Part shown: in pieces, positions 41,365 through 50,179 of the stretch
How the letters are laid out: each line of letters starts with the position of its first letter
Numbering within the stretch: the stretch's first letter is position 1
Source of the DNA: Methanosarcinales archaeon
GTDB taxonomy: Archaea; Halobacteriota; Methanosarcinia; Methanosarcinales; Methanocomedenaceae
NCBI GenBank assembly: GCA_021108405.1
Contig: JAIOQW010000120.1
Span: forward strand, 1-50,179
Direction: 5' to 3'
DNA: 50,179 bases
Made by a program: the position numbers and the translations under genes
Notes under the pieces: generated by a model
Told to the model about the DNA's origin: nothing
The model's input: only the letters and a program-made list of their open reading frames with translations
The model's database searches: none

Positions 41365-41407
41365 TGATTGAAAGGGAGATTATATTAATTATAAAAACAA
41401 TTTGGTA

Positions 41408-41608
41408 ATGACGATATATATGGAATCTATGACAGTCGAACTGACAATCAGAACAATAGAGAAATTGAAATTCATCGGCAAAAAAGGAGAGAATTACGAT
41501 GATATTATTCAGCATCTAATAGATGAAGTTGACTATGAGGCATTTATACAAAAACAGTATAAAATCCTAGATGAAGAAGATGAGTGGATATCTTTAGATG
41601 AGTTATAA
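41408..41608 (+). CDS. RelB-type antitoxin (VapB/DUF7557-like)
   Basis: This 66-residue protein has a short beta strand (MTVELTIRTIEKLKFIG) and helices (NYDDIIQHLIDEVDYEAFIQKQYKIL) as in archaeal antitoxins, with an acidic C-terminus (DEEDEWISLDEL). Its stop overlaps the toxin ATG by one base (TAATG). The start could also be ATG 41429 (MTVEL), which is the usual family start, or the TTG at 41402. Confidence 0.7.
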   Translation: MTIYMESMTVELTIRTIEKLKFIGKKGENYDDIIQHLIDEVDYEAFIQKQYKILDEEDEWISLDEL

Positions 41609-41880
41609 TGTCAAAACCTATTTTTTTATCAAAAATTGCAAAAAAACAACTAGATTCATTGCCAGATGATACGAAAAATAGAATTAAAAATGCACTATAT
41701 ACTTTAATTGATGCGCAAAAGAGTAGAAAGATTGATACTAAGAAATTAAAAGGTATTAAGGGCAGAGAAGATCTTTTTCGGTTGAGAATTGGCAATTATC
41801 GTATTGTCTATTTCGAAGATGTTAAGAGCATTAAAATAATCCAGATTTTCCATCGTGGGAAGGAATATAAATGGTTATGA
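41608..41880 (+). CDS. RelE/ParE-family toxin
   Basis: The 90-residue protein has the RelE fold pattern: FLSKIAKKQLDSLPDDTKNRI (helices), KLKGIKGREDLFRLRIGNYRIVYFEDVKSIKIIQIFHRGKEY. RelE homologues cleave ribosome-bound mRNA. The conserved LRIGNYRIVY strand is intact. It is coupled to the antitoxin. Confidence 0.88.
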   Translation: MSKPIFLSKIAKKQLDSLPDDTKNRIKNALYTLIDAQKSRKIDTKKLKGIKGREDLFRLRIGNYRIVYFEDVKSIKIIQIFHRGKEYKWL

Positions 41881-41970: not shown

Positions 41971-42174
41971 ACTTCAGCGATTTCGGCAGTACGAGATATC
42001 CACAACATTAACCGGCAACAAATCCAAAAAATTATAAGAGCAGTTTAGTCACTTACCGATAACCCATTTCCTCGTAATTATCTTAAGATTCAGGGATCGG
42101 AAGAGGATTATAGAATTCGGATTGGAGATTATAGAGCTATCTGTCGAGTGCATACTAGATCTAGACTTCAGTAG
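41971..42174 (+). pseudogene. Second RelE toxin, broken
   Basis: The frame TSAISAVRDIHNINRQQIQKIIRAV, then TAG, then SLTDNPFPRNYLKIQGSEEDYRIRIGDYRAICRV and a stop aligns with RelE. The in-frame TAG near 42046 and the missing N-terminus disable it. It lies 15 bp before the dGTPase-like gene. Confidence 0.8.
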
Positions 42175-42189
42175 TAATGAGGTGATATA

Positions 42190-43089
42190 GTGGGAGATAA
42201 ATACCATAAAAAAATGAAATTCGATTTGGAAGAAAAAATAAAATCTTATATTACCAGGAGGGAGAAAGACTATTTATCGGAATTTGCCTATAAAAACGAA
42301 GACGGATTAAGAAGGAAACAAAAAAATATAGAGGACATTCGGACTAAATGCTCAAGAGATGCCGATCGGATTGCGCATACACGTGCTTATTCGAGATATA
42401 TTGATAAAACTCAAGTCTTCTTTTTAGTGAACAACGATCACATTACACATCGTGTTCTTCATGTCCAACTAGTTTCAAAGATAGCCCGGACAATAGGAAG
42501 GGCCCTAAAATTAAACGAAGACCTAATTGAAGCCATTTCATTGGGACATGATATTGGTCATGTACCATTTGGCCACCCTGGTGAATCCATTCTATCTGAA
42601 TTGTGTGAAAAATGCGGACTCGGTAGATTCTTGCATAATGTTCAAGGTGTTCAATTCCTTGATAAGATCGAAGATTGTGATCTAACGCTTCAAGTACTTG
42701 ATGGTATTTTGTGCCATAATGGGGAAGTCCATAATCAATCATTAGAGCCCAATAGGGATAAAGACTGGGAAAAATTCGATAAAGAAATAGAGGATGTCAA
42801 AAAAGGGAAAAAAGATTATGTTCCTATGACCATGGAAGGATGTGTTGTAAGATTTGCTGACACAATAGCATATTTAGGTAGGGATATTCAAGATGCGATT
42901 GAAATAGGCCTCATAAGTAGCGATTTGGAAGTTCCGGAGCGTTGCAGGGAAAATATCGGGACAAAAAATGACGAAATAATAAATGCACTTGTTATAGATT
43001 TAATTGAAAATAGTTATGATCGAAATTACATTTCGTATTCAAAAGAAATTATGCTTCCTGGAAGAGTTACGTCATTCGCAAGTAATTGA
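42190..43089 (+). CDS. HD-domain dGTPase-like protein
   Basis: The 299-residue protein has the dNTP triphosphohydrolase layout: CSRDADRIAHTRAYSRYIDKTQVF, HRVLHVQLVSKIARTIGRAL and the HD motif SLGHDIGHVPFGHPGE (about 114-129), then VVRFADTIAYLGRDIQDAI with the final Asp. It hydrolyses dNTPs to deoxynucleosides and triphosphate; homologues serve in dNTP control and antiviral defence. It is shorter than common family members and its last 15 residues (IMLPGRVTSFASN) look unlike the family, so the C-terminus may be truncated. Start GTG after GAGGTGAT. It pairs with the next gene, 14 bp on. Confidence 0.85.
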   Translation: MGDKYHKKMKFDLEEKIKSYITRREKDYLSEFAYKNEDGLRRKQKNIEDIRTKCSRDADRIAHTRAYSRYIDKTQVFFLVNNDHITHRVLHVQLVSKIARTIGRALKLNEDLIEAISLGHDIGHVPFGHPGESILSELCEKCGLGRFLHNVQGVQFLDKIEDCDLTLQVLDGILCHNGEVHNQSLEPNRDKDWEKFDKEIEDVKKGKKDYVPMTMEGCVVRFADTIAYLGRDIQDAIEIGLISSDLEVPERCRENIGTKNDEIINALVIDLIENSYDRNYISYSKEIMLPGRVTSFASN

Positions 43090-43103
43090 GGGCTGTGATA
43101 CGC

Positions 43104-43532
43104 ATGTCAAGAATATATATAGCAGGTCCGTTATTTTCTGAAGCTGAAAAGCAGTATAACAGATATTTGAGTAAATATCTTGAAGATATGGGTTTTGAGA
43201 CATTTCTGCCACAACGTGATGGGTATAAGTTATCAGAATTATTGGCAAATGGTGAATCTGAATCATTTGCTATGGGTAAAATCTTCAAGCGAGATATTAG
43301 TGAAATTAAAAAGTCAGATATTGTAGTTTTTGTTATGGATGGTAGAGTCCCGGATGATGGGGCGTGTGTTGAGATCGGGTATGCTTATGCTATAGGAAAA
43401 GAGTGTATTGGTTTGAAAACGGACTCAAGAACACTTATGTCAGATCTGGATAACCCTATGATTTTAGGTGCTCTGAAGGATAGAATTGCAAGAAACCTCA
43501 AAGAACTAGGAGATTTTCTTATGCCACATTAG
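43104..43532 (+). CDS. Nucleoside 2-deoxyribosyltransferase family protein
   Basis: The 142-residue protein has the family start SRIYIAGPLFSEAEKQYN (3-20) and FKRDISEIKKSDIVVFVMDGRVPDDGACVEIGYAYAIGK with the catalytic Glu in DGACVEIGYA. Members transfer or hydrolyse deoxyribose on nucleosides or nucleotides. It lies 14 bp after the dGTPase-like gene and is probably co-transcribed. The chosen ATG 43104 begins at the conserved strand; a GTG 18 bases upstream is less likely. Confidence 0.9.
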   Translation: MSRIYIAGPLFSEAEKQYNRYLSKYLEDMGFETFLPQRDGYKLSELLANGESESFAMGKIFKRDISEIKKSDIVVFVMDGRVPDDGACVEIGYAYAIGKECIGLKTDSRTLMSDLDNPMILGALKDRIARNLKELGDFLMPH

Positions 43533-43632: not shown

Positions 43633-43766
43633 GACACTGTACCATTTTCCAGTTATTTTTCAGACACGGATACACCCAACTCCGTAGGAGGTGGGTGTAT
43701 CCGTGTCTATGTAATTATCGACTTCAACAATCTTCTATTGAAATAACTGGTTTTTAGGATAGTGCC
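43633..43766. mobile_element. MITE family B, copy 3, with 9-bp target duplication
   Basis: This 134-bp short version starts GACACTGTACC, ends GATAGTGCC and is flanked by CCCAATGTT on both sides. Its middle is a different perfect-looking hairpin (GGATACACCCAACTCC/GGAGGTGGGTGTATCC). It sits in the leader of the next gene, separating its promoter from the start codon. Confidence 0.9.
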
Positions 43767-44618: not shown

Positions 44619-44840
44619 ATGAATACAAATGTAAAGGAAATATTAAGTGAAATCTTCCCATTATCTTTAAAAGAAAAAACAGAGCTCATTGGCTGGATAG
44701 CAAAATCTATAGAAGAAGATAGTCTGAAACTCCATAAAAAAGATATTCGTAAATATTGCGGTGTTTTAAAAAGTAAGAGGGATGCTCTGAAATTTGAAAG
44801 GGATATTAGAAATGAATGGGACAGACAGATATCTAATTGA
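44619..44840 (+). CDS. VapB-like antitoxin
   Basis: The 73-residue protein has a helical start (NTNVKEILSEIFPLSLKEKTELIGWIAKSIEED) and a basic end (LKFERDIRNEWDRQISN). ATG 44619 lies 4 bp after GGTGA; ATG 44607 holds that site inside the gene. It overlaps the PIN toxin gene by 29 bp, the usual antitoxin-toxin arrangement. Confidence 0.75.
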   Translation: MNTNVKEILSEIFPLSLKEKTELIGWIAKSIEEDSLKLHKKDIRKYCGVLKSKRDALKFERDIRNEWDRQISN

Positions 44841-45213
44841 TACGAATATTTTGATATATTTCTTGCAGGGAGAGGAAGTAGCCATATCTTTTTTTAATAA
44901 TGTAATGGATAAAGAGCTTTGCATTTCTTTGATTAATAAAATCGAAGTATTATCCTTTCCAGACCTTCTCGAGAATGAAGAAATAGAGATTAAACAGTTT
45001 TTATTGAATTTTATCATTCTCAATGTTGATGATTCGGTAGCAGAAGAAACCATACAGATAAGAAAGATGTATAAATTGAAATTAGGGGATGCCCTTATAT
45101 CTGCAACATCCATAATACATGATGCTGTACTTGTCTCAAGAAATGAGAAGGATTTTAGAAAAGTTGATGGGCTGAAATTTTTAAATCCTTATGGTGCAAG
45201 GCACAAATCTTGA
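44812..45213 (+). CDS. vapC: VapC-type PIN-domain toxin
   Basis: The 133-residue PIN-domain ribonuclease has the acidic active-site positions: YLIDTNILIYFLQG (Asp about 9), SLINKIEVLSFP (Glu about 40) and LGDALISATSIIHDAVLVSRNEKDF (Asp about 92 and further). It is tightly linked to the upstream antitoxin. Start ATG 44812 follows GGGATATTAG. Confidence 0.9.
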   Translation: MNGTDRYLIDTNILIYFLQGEEVAISFFNNVMDKELCISLINKIEVLSFPDLLENEEIEIKQFLLNFIILNVDDSVAEETIQIRKMYKLKLGDALISATSIIHDAVLVSRNEKDFRKVDGLKFLNPYGARHKS

Positions 45214-45510
45214 TCATACCTCAGTGTTTATAGATATTATCATGATGGTCATAATCTTCAAGTGTGGCGCTCTTTGATAAATGCTTTTTGTGAAAGTTTC
45301 ATGAAGACATTAAAATACGAGGAAGTCTACCTTGCAGATTATAGAACCTTCAACGAGGCATATGATAATATTGAGAATTTTATCGAGAGTGTCTATAATG
45401 AAAAGAGACTGCATTCGAAGATAGGATATCTACCACCGATAGAATATGAAGAAGCGTTAAGATTATATAGTGTTGCTTAACTACCTGTCCGGTATTAAGG
45501 GTGCACTCCA
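45214..45510 (+). mobile_element. IS3-family insertion sequence remnant, right end
   Basis: A transposase tail (next entry) is followed at 45487-45510 by TGTCCGGTATTAAGGGTGCACTCC. Its mirror image GGAGTGCACC...CGGACA is found at 47545-47570. Those are the two IS3-type terminal repeats, now 2 kb apart with other genes between and with most of the element deleted. Confidence 0.75.
45262..45480 (+). pseudogene. IS3 OrfB transposase C-terminal fragment
   Basis: NAFCESFMKTLKYEEVYLADYRTF and NIENFIESVYNEKRLHSKIGYLPPIEYEE are the end of the rve integrase core of IS3 transposases. The DD part of DDE and all of OrfA are missing. No start is likely to be real. Confidence 0.9.
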
Positions 45511-45815: not shown

Positions 45816-46034
45816 ATGTCTGCCGAAATTTCTATTTACGAAAAACAATTAATCCATGAAATAAAAGAGACACCATATGAATATTTGCCGAACCTGCTTA
45901 AGATTGTCAGATTGTTCCGTGAAAGCGTAGAGTTAAAGCCTGCTGAGGCGAGCTTCCGCCAGGGCTGGAAAGAAGCTATTGTGAATGATATAGAACCGGT
46001 GTCTGAATTGTGGGATGGCATCGATGCCGAATGA
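45816..46034 (+). CDS. Antitoxin-like partner of the RelE toxin
   Basis: The 72-residue protein (MSAEISIYEKQLIHEIKETPYEYLPNLLKIVRLFRESVEL) is helical; a strong GAAGGAGAA precedes the ATG. It resembles short toxin partners of the DUF2281 type. Its stop lies 20 bp inside the toxin gene. Confidence 0.7.
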   Translation: MSAEISIYEKQLIHEIKETPYEYLPNLLKIVRLFRESVELKPAEASFRQGWKEAIVNDIEPVSELWDGIDAE

Positions 46035-46386
46035 GTTATCTGAACAAGTGCAAGTTGAGTTTACCCCGGAATTTAAACGTAATCTACGAGCGCTTTCCAA
46101 GAAATATCGACACATTCGCTCTGATGTTCAGCCGGCAATTGACCAACTTCAAGCAGGCGAAGTCATAGGCGACCAAGTGCCTAGAACGACTTACACAATA
46201 TTCAAGATGAGAGTACGGAATAGTGATATACAAAAAGGGAAACGTTCCGGGTATCGTCTGATCTATTATCTCAAGACGCATACAAACATCATTCTTGTAA
46301 CGATTTATTCCAAGTTAGATCAGGCAGACATATCAGCCGAGCAGATTCAGCGTATTTTAATTAATTTTGATAAGCACAATGAATAA
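46015..46386 (+). CDS. RelE/ParE-type toxin, larger form
   Basis: The 123-residue protein has VEFTPEFKRNLRALSKKYRHIRSDVQPAIDQLQAG and GKRSGYRLIYYLKTHTNIILVTIYSKLDQADISAEQIQRI, the RelE/HigB-like pattern with conserved YRLIYY strand. It overlaps the antitoxin gene. The ATG at 46015 or the one at 46024 could be used. Confidence 0.82.
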   Translation: MASMPNELSEQVQVEFTPEFKRNLRALSKKYRHIRSDVQPAIDQLQAGEVIGDQVPRTTYTIFKMRVRNSDIQKGKRSGYRLIYYLKTHTNIILVTIYSKLDQADISAEQIQRILINFDKHNE

Positions 46387-46497: not shown

Positions 46498-46911
46498 ATG
46501 CTAATGATGAAAGACCTGTTCCCCGCCGTTCTTAACCGCACTGCAATGCTCGACGGCTGCGGAATTAATCACCCGAGATTTGCGGGACTTGCTACCCATA
46601 TAGGTGTTGCACTCGATATCCCGACCATCGGCGTATCAAAAAACATCCTCTGTGGTACTTCCGAGCAGCCTGTGGATGTCGGAGAATTTCATCCGTTAAT
46701 TTATAACAATAAGCATACCGGATGGGTACTCTTATCCAAAGAGAACTGCAACCCGATCATCATAGCACCTGGACACCAGGTTTCGCTGGCAAGTTCTATC
46801 GAGATAGTAAAACACTGTCTGCGCGGATACAAACTTCCTGAGCCAACAAGACAGGCACATGACTATGTGAATACTGTAAAAAGAGAAATGAAAGCATCTA
46901 GTTTCTATTGA
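46498..46911 (+). pseudogene. nfi: Endonuclease V, C-terminal part
   Basis: DGCGINHPRFAGLATHIGVALDIPTIGVSKNIL, IIAPGHQVSLASSIEIV and RGYKLPEPTRQAH are strong endonuclease V motifs. About 90 N-terminal residues, including the first catalytic Asp and Glu, are missing; no upstream frame restores them. It is probably a non-functional fragment, though an open frame of 137 codons survives. Confidence 0.88.
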
Positions 46912-47020: not shown

Positions 47021-47275
47021 TTATTTTATATAGAATAGATTTTCTATAAGATTTTCTTTTGTCATTTTCAAATATGCTGCAATATCTTTTAAAATGTTAT
47101 TTAGTGTTCCTACCTTAATGGGACTATGGGCTGGAATTGTAATCAAATGCTCATGTCCCATAAAATTGCTTTTCAATCGAATGTGACTTCCTGTTTGTCG
47201 TGAGATTGTATAACCATATTTCCTCAAGACTGTGCATAAGTCTTTATGCGAAACATCCCTTGGCATTCGAGGCAT
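47021..47275 (-). CDS. hicA: HicA-type toxin
   Basis: The 84-residue protein has the HicA/YcfA dsRBD-like pattern MPRMPRDVSHKDLCTVLRKYGYTISRQTGSHIRLKSN with the catalytic His in GSHIRL, then ITIPAHSPIKVGTLNNILKDIAAYL. It cleaves mRNA until bound by HicB. Its start overlaps hicB by 32 bp. Confidence 0.93.
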   Translation of the reverse strand: MPRMPRDVSHKDLCTVLRKYGYTISRQTGSHIRLKSNFMGHEHLITIPAHSPIKVGTLNNILKDIAAYLKMTKENLIENLFYIK

Positions 47276-47725: not shown

Positions 47726-48493
47726 TCATTCTACAAGTTCTGTAATATATTCATCTCTTCTGGACCATAGTATAGGTTTTATTCCATACTGTAAAAGAGC
47801 ACTTTCCAAATCCGGGTTAATCTTGGACTCGGTATCATTTAAGAAACTGCATGTAATAGATTCAATCGGCCTGACTTCCTTTGTATCAGTCCATGAAAAA
47901 ATTAAGAAACTTATGCTCTGACGATCCGGATGATTTACAACTTTAATTATTCTTTCCGGTCGTTTTTGGGAAGTTGGAATAACAAAATCAAAAGATTGAT
48001 TAAATCCACTTTTTCCTGTAAACTTAACTGCTGGTGTAAAACGAATATTATGAATACTTAGGAACTTTTCCACGTCTTCTCTAAAAACATTAGCTACTAT
48101 TGATTGAGCCATTACGAACATATCATTAATAGCAAGCATTGCCTGTAGTAAATCATGTTTTTTTTGAGGAAAATTTTCAATTTTTGCTCTTACAATAATC
48201 TCGTCACCTTGAAGATGAGCACCAAAACTATTTAAAATTGAATCCAATATTTGTTTCCTTTTCTCAGTTGAGATATCAAAACCGCTCAGTCTAAGGTCCT
48301 TAATTGTGTACCCATCATCAGTAAGAATAAGTGAATTGTCAATTTGTTTTACATATATCTGTAAATGATCATTATGTCGGTCAACAAATGGAGTAATAAT
48401 CTCACAGATTCCTTCTATATCTTTTACAGTAAATTTCTGTTTGAACCATTCACTATAAGTTTCAATTAAATCCTGACATTCATTCAAACTCAT
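47726..48493 (-). CDS. DUF1828/DUF1829 protein
   Basis: The 255-residue protein has an N-terminal DUF1828-like half (about 1-120: VDRHNDHLQIYVKQIDNSLILTDDGYTIKDLRLSG) and a C-terminal DUF1829-like half (about 150-255: FDFVIPTSQKRPERIIKVVNHPDRQSISFLIFSWTD). It is soluble, function unknown; members occur on phages and in defence neighbourhoods. Its start overlaps the upstream gene by 14 bp, so the two form a unit. Confidence 0.75.
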   Translation of the reverse strand: MSLNECQDLIETYSEWFKQKFTVKDIEGICEIITPFVDRHNDHLQIYVKQIDNSLILTDDGYTIKDLRLSGFDISTEKRKQILDSILNSFGAHLQGDEIIVRAKIENFPQKKHDLLQAMLAINDMFVMAQSIVANVFREDVEKFLSIHNIRFTPAVKFTGKSGFNQSFDFVIPTSQKRPERIIKVVNHPDRQSISFLIFSWTDTKEVRPIESITCSFLNDTESKINPDLESALLQYGIKPILWSRRDEYITELVE

Positions 48494-48968
48494 TTAATGT
48501 TTGCCTCCAGTATATTTTTGGTGGTTCAACTACATTACAATAACGGAAGAAATCCTCTAATGTATTATATAAAGATTTTGTATCAGAAAAGTCACTACTG
48601 GAAATAGGAATAGCCCATTTGTCCATATAACCTTCTATATATAAATGTATATGTGGACAATCAACAATCTGTCCGTTATAATCTTCTAAAAATGGAAATG
48701 GAGCTGTTTCTATTTCTGGATTGGAATGTGGTGGTCCATCAACATCGAGGCGGATAAAAATTATAGATTGCTGGTATCGTTCTTGATAAGTACATTTTGA
48801 AAGTCTAATATTCCCTCGGTTAATATCCAACAAGAATTTTTCTTGTTCATCTAGAGAAATAATAGGTATACTTAAAAAATCTCCTGGAAATGGGAAGTTA
48901 TAACTTTCATTGCTGTTATTTTTTTTTGGAAGATTAATAAGAGCATCTGCTTTGGTCTGAGTCAACAT
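48480..48968 (-). CDS. Partner of the DUF1828/1829 gene, unknown
   Basis: The 162-residue protein starts MLTQTKADALINLPKKNN; I do not recognise it. It is likely soluble with a beta-rich middle (FPFPGDFLSIPIISLDEQEKFLLDINRGNIRLS, QQSIIFIRLDVDGPPHSNPEIE) and DCPHIHLYIEGY. ATG 48968 is chosen because GGAAAT precedes it; a longer frame to 49109 would start inside the 107-bp MITE. It is translationally coupled to the DUF1828 gene. Confidence 0.6.
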   Translation of the reverse strand: MLTQTKADALINLPKKNNSNESYNFPFPGDFLSIPIISLDEQEKFLLDINRGNIRLSKCTYQERYQQSIIFIRLDVDGPPHSNPEIETAPFPFLEDYNGQIVDCPHIHLYIEGYMDKWAIPISSSDFSDTKSLYNTLEDFFRYCNVVEPPKIYWRQTLNEFE

Positions 48969-49081
48969 TTTATTTCCTACCAGATGGAACATCATGATGC
49001 ATATAATTAAAATTGTGTTTGAAGATTTAATAATTTCCGTATAATGATGAATTCCATCTATCCATTGTAAAACCTTCTTAA

Positions 49082-49188
49082 CAGGGTGTCTCAAAACTAA
49101 AATTCCCATGGAAAAGGAGTCTAATTATGCCTTTAAATCAAGAACTAAGGTCTAAATTTTTCATTTTTTGGACTTTTGGGACAGCCTG
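49082..49188. mobile_element. 107-bp MITE family C, copy 2, 4-bp target duplication
   Basis: It is identical to 26947-27053 over all 107 bp and flanked by TTAA on both sides. It lies about 110 bp upstream of the DUF1828 partner gene and probably cut that gene off from its native promoter. Confidence 0.9.
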
Positions 49189-49577: not shown

Positions 49578-50179
49578 GTGCTGTGACAAGAAGTCGCATA
49601 ATGAATTGCTATATGCTGCCCCTTCCGTTTGGGGTAATCCTACTGAGATATGCGTCAGCAGTAACGCTGGGGTGTAATGCTCTCAGGACAATATGGAGAC
49701 ATTTGAAAGACTAATTCAAACGATCTGTTAGGATAAGAATGCTATGAAGAAAACGAAAGTTGAACCATTGTAAGAGTCGTGAACCCCAATAAGTGAAAAT
49801 AGTCTGAAAACACTTAAACCAAAAGGTACGGAATCAGACCATAATGACTCACGGTGCATTATGGGAAACGGACAAATGATCCCCGGTTTATAGATGGCTT
49901 CTAAGGCATTCAAAATTATTCATTATGTGGAACTTGGTAAGCCCTATACGCTCCCATTAGGGTAGAAATTCCGCGAGGAACAACGATGGCGTAGAGGGTA
50001 GAGGAGAGAGTAAAAAGCGAAAGGCACCTTGTAATGAGATGCATAGAGGTTCAAAATTTGCCTTGATCCGAAAGGATGCTGACTTACTCTATGGTGTTTT
50101 ATTGTGTGAACGAAGGTAAATCTATGAATGTAAGAAATTCAATTACACCGCAAGGTGAGAAGCTTACAAACATGCAACT
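49578..50179 (+). mobile_element. Group II intron, 5' part (domains I to IV start), runs off the window
   Basis: The stretch GTGCTGTGACAAGAAGTC begins a structured, gene-free RNA of about 540 bases. GAGTCGTGAACCCC, GTGAAAATAGTCTGAAAACAC and a long GTAAAAAGCGAAAGGCACC part look like group II intron domain I. It leads to a reading frame with a reverse-transcriptase-type start. The exact 5' splice site (49578 or 49583) is uncertain. The 3' end and domains V-VI lie beyond the window. Confidence 0.7.
50124..50179 (+). CDS. Start of the intron-encoded reverse transcriptase/maturase, partial
   Basis: ATG 50124 opens MNVRNSITPQGEKLTNMQ before the window ends. The leader NxRNSITPQGE resembles starts of bacterial-type group II intron proteins, which carry RT, maturase and sometimes endonuclease domains. 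Too little is present to confirm domains. Confidence 0.55.
   Translation, partial: MNVRNSITPQGEKLTNMQ

Follow-up and report, generated by a model that had tools for sequence, protein, structure and literature searches.

A stretch of 50,179 nucleotides from a Methanosarcinales archaeon (Methanocomedenaceae; assembly GCA_021108405.1, contig JAIOQW010000120.1), hereafter the window, carries a dGTPase-like gene followed closely by a gene for a nucleoside 2-deoxyribosyltransferase (NDT) family protein. The original prediction proposed that the two enzymes form a nucleotide-depletion defence, which raises the question of whether such a pair exists as a unit, what it does and whether the copy in the window still does it. 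In our reading, the window locus derives by decay from an accessory two-gene operon of archaea, whose intact copies would serve as a dNTP-depletion defence (probability about 0.5). The pair and the element downstream of it are as follows.

42190-43089, + strand: dGTPase (HD-domain dNTP triphosphohydrolase), internally deleted; identified by Pfam HD and the PADLOC dGTPase model
43104-43532, + strand: NDT family protein; identified by PF05014, catalytic-residue alignment and nearest solved structure (7o62)
43662-43708: near-perfect 22-bp inverted repeat with a 3-nt loop, downstream of the NDT gene

The dGTPase ORF encodes 299 aa from a GTG start, compared with about 398 aa in its full-length homologue, and matches Pfam HD (2.7e-11) and the PADLOC dGTPase model (2.4e-42). 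The NDT ORF encodes 142 aa from an ATG and matches PF05014 (7.9e-24 for the TTG-start form) with 84.5 bits, well above the gathering cut-off of 28.8. The ORF coordinates agree with the spacing originally given, the dGTPase stop and the NDT ATG lying 14 bp apart on the same strand. The HD metal motif (GHDIGH) and the NDT glutamate (E90) had been described as intact, and both were found, together with D64, D84 and N117. Judged by its sequence, the inverted repeat is a possible terminator or element end.

The dGTPase had also been noted for an odd, short C-terminus. It is indeed shortened, but not simply at its C-terminal end. Its closest homologue, a protein of 398 aa with 86% identity, belongs to an ANME-2 cluster archaeon (G049 = L052; G049/L004), and compared with this gene exactly 285 bp (95 codons) are gone from the interior of the window gene, with the reading frame kept. 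The missing codons occur in every intact homologue (about 390-410 aa or slightly longer). In the full-length homologue the 285 bp are bracketed by two 9-bp direct repeats, AAAGAAATT, one of which is left in the window:

43042-43050, + strand: deletion scar with a single AAAGAAATT, identified by the junction and the shared 9-mer

An assembly collapse appeared unlikely as the source of this deletion, because the frame is kept and a repeat of 9 bp would not be nearly long enough for an assembler to collapse, and the deletion was thus taken as biological. The lost peptide includes VRDYIAGMTDRYF, the core of which is found in solved dGTPases (Thermus 2dqb, 9p8w, 7lwz and 9vwa). Intact members have both the HD motif and a C-terminal DYIAGMTDRY region, of which the window copy keeps the HD motif only. 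As expected from the deletion, its TIGR01353 score (125 bits) falls below the cut-off of 152.35 bits, whereas intact paired members score 160-175. Since the conserved DYIAGMTDRY region is deleted, the window dGTPase is most likely inactive, and after this loss the window retains an NDT gene that, from its sequence, still looks intact. The dN/dS of the retained dGTPase part against the G049 homologue is 0.21, a value that mostly reflects the time before the deletion.

The region upstream has been reduced as well. Another contig of the same assembly (C179; L143; G000:C179 77-6029) breaks off after the first 126 bp of a second dGTPase gene, whose start shows 88% amino acid identity to the window dGTPase over 42 residues. 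This start is preceded by HsdS and HsdR (type I restriction), a gene that from its sequence we take to be SprT-like, and a RelB/RelE pair whose RelE gene has a ParE Pfam match. The counterpart in the window is a remnant:

41979-42163, + strand: RelE/ParE toxin remnant, with 94% DNA identity (blastn) to the C179 RelE gene preceding the second dGTPase

The end of this RelE gene is joined 2 bp ahead of the region homologous to the dGTPase leader, and about 290 bp are absent upstream of the window dGTPase compared with C179. With its internal deletion and shortened upstream region, the window locus is doubly reduced.

The wider surroundings in the window contain the following features.

41402-41880, + strand: toxin-antitoxin pair (DUF7557 antitoxin-like; ParE toxin), upstream of the dGTPase
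44794-45213: PIN/VapC toxin-antitoxin gene
45262-45480: integrase-core (rve) fragment
46015-46386: RelE/ParE-like toxin-antitoxin gene
46498-46911: endonuclease V fragment, C-terminal half
47021-47275: HicA toxin gene
47726-49109: PADLOC candidate pair PDC-M24A/B (a DUF6978 protein and a DUF1828/DUF1829 protein)

The toxin-antitoxin genes reported around the pair are thus present. The accompanying claim of restriction and repair fossils holds for repair (endonuclease V), but no clear restriction-gene fossil was found near the pair in the window, the type I restriction genes being those that adjoin the dGTPase start on C179. The rve and endonuclease V fragments are signs of local gene decay. 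The PDC-M24 pair adjoins the HicA gene (DUF1828/DUF1829 protein match, 7e-102), and a group II intron domain match (RF02012, 54 bits) lies at 49617-49767, near the contig end.

With regard to the second enzyme, D64, D84, E90 and N117 are invariant in the alignment, and E90, D84, D64 and N117 correspond by spacing to the catalytic positions Glu101, Asp95, Asp75 and Asn128 of LhPDT (PMC4270796). In the Lactobacillus enzymes, the carboxylate of a C-terminal Tyr (Tyr157/Tyr167) holds the base. This terminal Tyr is absent from the window NDT, which ends MPH, and the C-terminus is unconserved among the pairs. Owing to this absence, transfer and hydrolysis are both compatible with the paired NDT, which on its sequence may have hydrolase or other glycosyl activity rather than transfer activity. 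A structure model of moderate confidence (pLDDT 68), used only for fold class, was closest to the Desulfotalea NDT 7o62, followed by other NDTs, with the nucleotide hydrolases MilB and DNPH1 further away. Solved NDTs (7o62, Chroococcidiopsis NDT and Lactobacillus NDT/PDT) and methanogen housekeeping NDT-like genes share the fold and the Asp/Asp/Glu/Asn positions, whereas the paired NDTs form their own group, linked to a dGTPase.

A search for co-occurrence identified a dGTPase followed by an NDT in eight genomes besides the window among 60 relatives (G003, G004, G006, G007, G037, G041, G049 and G059). Scanning GTDB contigs with the dGTPase alignment and checking the neighbouring genes by profile added pairs in Methanophagales (ANME-1), an Altarchaeum, a Thermoplasmata, ANME-3, Methanothrix and one Methanoregula. 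Between the paired ORFs there is either an overlap of no more than 4 bp or a gap of at most about 120 bp. Because many genomes have members of these two families side by side and in this order, both chance adjacency and the possibility, raised with the original prediction, that the pair is unique to this contig could be ruled out. In methane-cycling and other archaea, the dGTPase and NDT genes make up a real and recurrent, though patchy, operon.

When 394 genomes of the phylum and 186 of the order were surveyed, 28 genomes proved to have the NDT subfamily. An intact dGTPase lies directly upstream in 16 of them and a dGTPase remnant in nine (the window, G052, G012, G506, G503, G392, G306, G492 and G138), and no upstream dGTPase was found in three (G020, G390 and G244). 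In G037 the dGTPase is intact and the NDT has an internal stop. Distribution within the order is patchy (21 of 186 genomes). Most members of the dGTPase subfamily itself have no NDT partner (73 genomes of the phylum sample), and intact unpaired members occur in Altiarchaeota (L055, L057 and L058). Eight other Thermoplasmatota genomes have related NDTs with no adjoining dGTPase, and the NDT subfamily was absent from the 297 Desulfobacterota genomes surveyed. NDT relatives on plasmids of Selenomonas, Streptosporangium, Eleftheria and Halarchaeum also have neighbours other than a dGTPase, so that the pairing is a feature of one NDT subfamily. On the Eleftheria terrae plasmid (L222, 2277-4435) a SIR2-family gene, possibly another defence-like NDT partner, overlaps the NDT relative (47% identity). 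The relative on the Streptosporangium plasmid (L221, 1234-4474) lies within a 7-deazaguanine (QueD/QueE/QueC-like) cluster and is perhaps a base-exchange enzyme.

The window dGTPase is 86% identical to that in a genome of another family and only 59-63% identical to those in four genomes of its own family, and the pair occupies many chromosomal sites. Together with the patchy distribution, this indicates that the pair moves horizontally. In the dGTPase tree (like the NDT tree, a quick tree with some long branches), paired members fall in a few clades, with 5 label changes, and the main clades of paired NDTs resemble the dGTPase clades. Paired and orphan NDTs are separated from the methanogen housekeeping paralogue with a branch support of 100, long-branch plasmid and viral relatives falling on the paired/orphan side. 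The orphan NDTs are scattered in the tree, requiring about six label changes, which indicates repeated dGTPase loss. The NDTs are under purifying selection (dN/dS 0.06-0.36), with a value of 0.13 between G306 and G392, both of which are without a working dGTPase. Vertical inheritance of housekeeping orthologues, the other objection foreseen at the outset, was rejected for the paired form, which is patchy and found at several sites. It seems to hold for the closest unpaired dGTPases, those of Methanoregula and Desulfobacterales, which are in fixed synteny.

HD dGTPases convert dNTPs to deoxynucleosides and triphosphate. Enzymes of the NDT family use a catalytic Glu to attack deoxynucleosides at the glycosidic bond. 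In the intact operon, the first gene would encode a full-length HD dNTP triphosphohydrolase that performs the former reaction, and the NDT-family product of the second gene would act on the released deoxynucleosides, breaking or exchanging their N-glycosidic bond. Deoxynucleosides so altered could not simply be re-phosphorylated, which would make dNTP removal hard to reverse. The pair probably lowers or reshapes the pool of DNA building blocks, and its most likely use would be to deplete that pool conditionally when viruses or other invaders enter. Conserved gene order and adjacency, joint inheritance of the two genes, the catalytic residues, patchiness, movement between lineages, repeated dGTPase loss and the deletion in the window were observed. 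The two reactions, their coupling and their defensive purpose are inferred. Nucleotide-depletion defence best accounts for a module of this conditional, dispensable and mobile kind. What the original prediction had pictured as a two-enzyme defence is therefore upheld as a recurrent, mobile unit, for which some neighbourhoods suggest defence, but not for the window copy, with its 95-codon deletion and shortened upstream region. A bolder version of this reading, which we advance tentatively, is that intact pairs constitute a new antiviral system of archaea whose enzymes act in series, the deoxynucleosides stripped from dNTPs being destroyed or scrambled beyond rescue by host and viral deoxynucleoside kinases, and that the dGTPase is frequently lost because it is costly.

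The gene neighbourhoods point to both defence and metabolism. The 144 proteins encoded within 6 kb of 17 paired or orphan loci gave matches to 171 PADLOC models, compared with 20 models for 139 proteins from random regions of the same genomes. A few loci drive this contrast (a single nuclease accounts for 16 models), and the controls are few and often from short contigs. The contrast stems from AbiE (G004), a type I methyltransferase (G324), a DUF1016 nuclease (G041), the PDC-M24 pair of the window and others; in G012 there is presumably also an AbiE, as read from its sequence. In G037 the pair is immediately followed by DNA methylase, NurA and HerA-type genes, and the same arrangement was observed in G059. 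The enrichment near defence genes that had been suggested as a check was thus observed in the counts, but many pairs sit between ordinary housekeeping genes, for example those that from sequence we take to be for HisS, IlvD, AroA or 2-oxoacid:ferredoxin oxidoreductase. As a further point against defence, the closest unpaired dGTPases resemble housekeeping genes passed down vertically. Viral contigs contained no relative of the paired dGTPases and only distant NDTs; there is thus no direct link to viruses, and a virus-borne metabolic module was rejected.

The alternative that survives best, possible although less favoured, is salvage or tuning of the dNTP pool, in which the dGTPase would trim excess dNTPs and the NDT recycle deoxyribose onto other bases, as an accessory trait spread horizontally. 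Neither family is unusual among nucleotide enzymes, a deoxyribosyltransferase is the nearest solved relative of the NDT, and many copies lie beside housekeeping genes as described above. In addition, anaerobic ribonucleotide reductase (NrdD), which suits dNTP metabolism, was found within about 8 kb in four settings, namely Methanophagales (with NrdG too), G059, G020 and Methanothrix (L139, L142, L097 and L176/L182), compared with none at 71 unpaired dGTPase loci (1.05 Mb) and none in further flanks of the paired loci. However, this link was noticed post hoc, and the reductase genes lie outside the operon. Patchiness, repeated decay and changes of site fit a dispensable defence at least equally well.

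It is unlikely that the dGTPase is a toxic effector restrained by a nucleotide-derived signal that the NDT makes or removes. Such an arrangement would resemble Clover, in which CloA, the dGTPase, is toxic when the partner enzyme is missing (PMC12265719). Among the nine loci with a damaged dGTPase, the NDT is full-length in seven, shortened in G138 and stopped in G492, the reverse case being only G037, and the low dN/dS between the NDTs of G306 and G392 also suits a retained partner. However, the survey began from NDT presence, so that this asymmetry is biased and was rejected as proof of an antitoxin role, and the dGTPase is a 2.8 times longer target. Moreover, intact unpaired dGTPases exist in Altiarchaeota, and the pair has no nucleotidyltransferase. 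Least of all do we expect the window pair itself to be a working two-enzyme defence, as the original prediction taken literally would have it: the frame stays open after the deletion, the HD metal motif is kept and the retained part has a dN/dS of 0.21 against G049, but the 95 lost residues include the VRDYIAGMTDRY region of Thermus and other solved dGTPases, the dN/dS mostly predates the loss, and sequence upstream is missing too in comparison with C179. The defence hypothesis is thus favoured over its rivals, followed by salvage or pool tuning and then by the Clover-like effector and restrainer.

Nucleotide depletion is a known antiviral strategy of bacteria and animals, and the dGTPase systems known to us act alone or with a nucleotidyltransferase. 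Experimental virology is scarce for ANME-1, -2 and -3, and the pair would be a candidate nucleotide-depletion module of these anaerobic methanotrophs. If its role is metabolic instead, methane-cycling archaea would have a mobile operon for dNTP salvage, which is unexpected. In line with the original prediction, our literature search, with most subscription papers outside its reach, found no described defence system that combines a dGTPase with a deoxyribosyltransferase. Retrons with an NDT-like protein, which works with a reverse transcriptase and ncRNA in defence (PMC12548924), share the defensive use of an NDT-superfamily protein and differ from the pair, which includes neither reverse transcriptase nor ncRNA. 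Clover also consists of two genes, a dGTPase (CloA) and a nucleotide-acting partner (CloB) that holds it in check (PMC12265719), but that partner is a Pol-beta nucleotidyltransferase rather than a PF05014 NDT. The single-gene anti-phage dGTPases, such as SpdGTPase of Shewanella putrefaciens, share the HD-type family, its motifs and the PADLOC dGTPase match, and by analogy dNTP depletion would be the common principle. Against their model NF041026 (cut-off 400 bits), the window copy scored 95 bits and intact pairs 107-125, below the cut-off. In contrast with these enzymes, the pair is archaeal and its dGTPase is accompanied by an NDT, and this coupling of a dGTPase to a deoxyribosyltransferase would add a second, hard-to-reverse step to nucleotide depletion.
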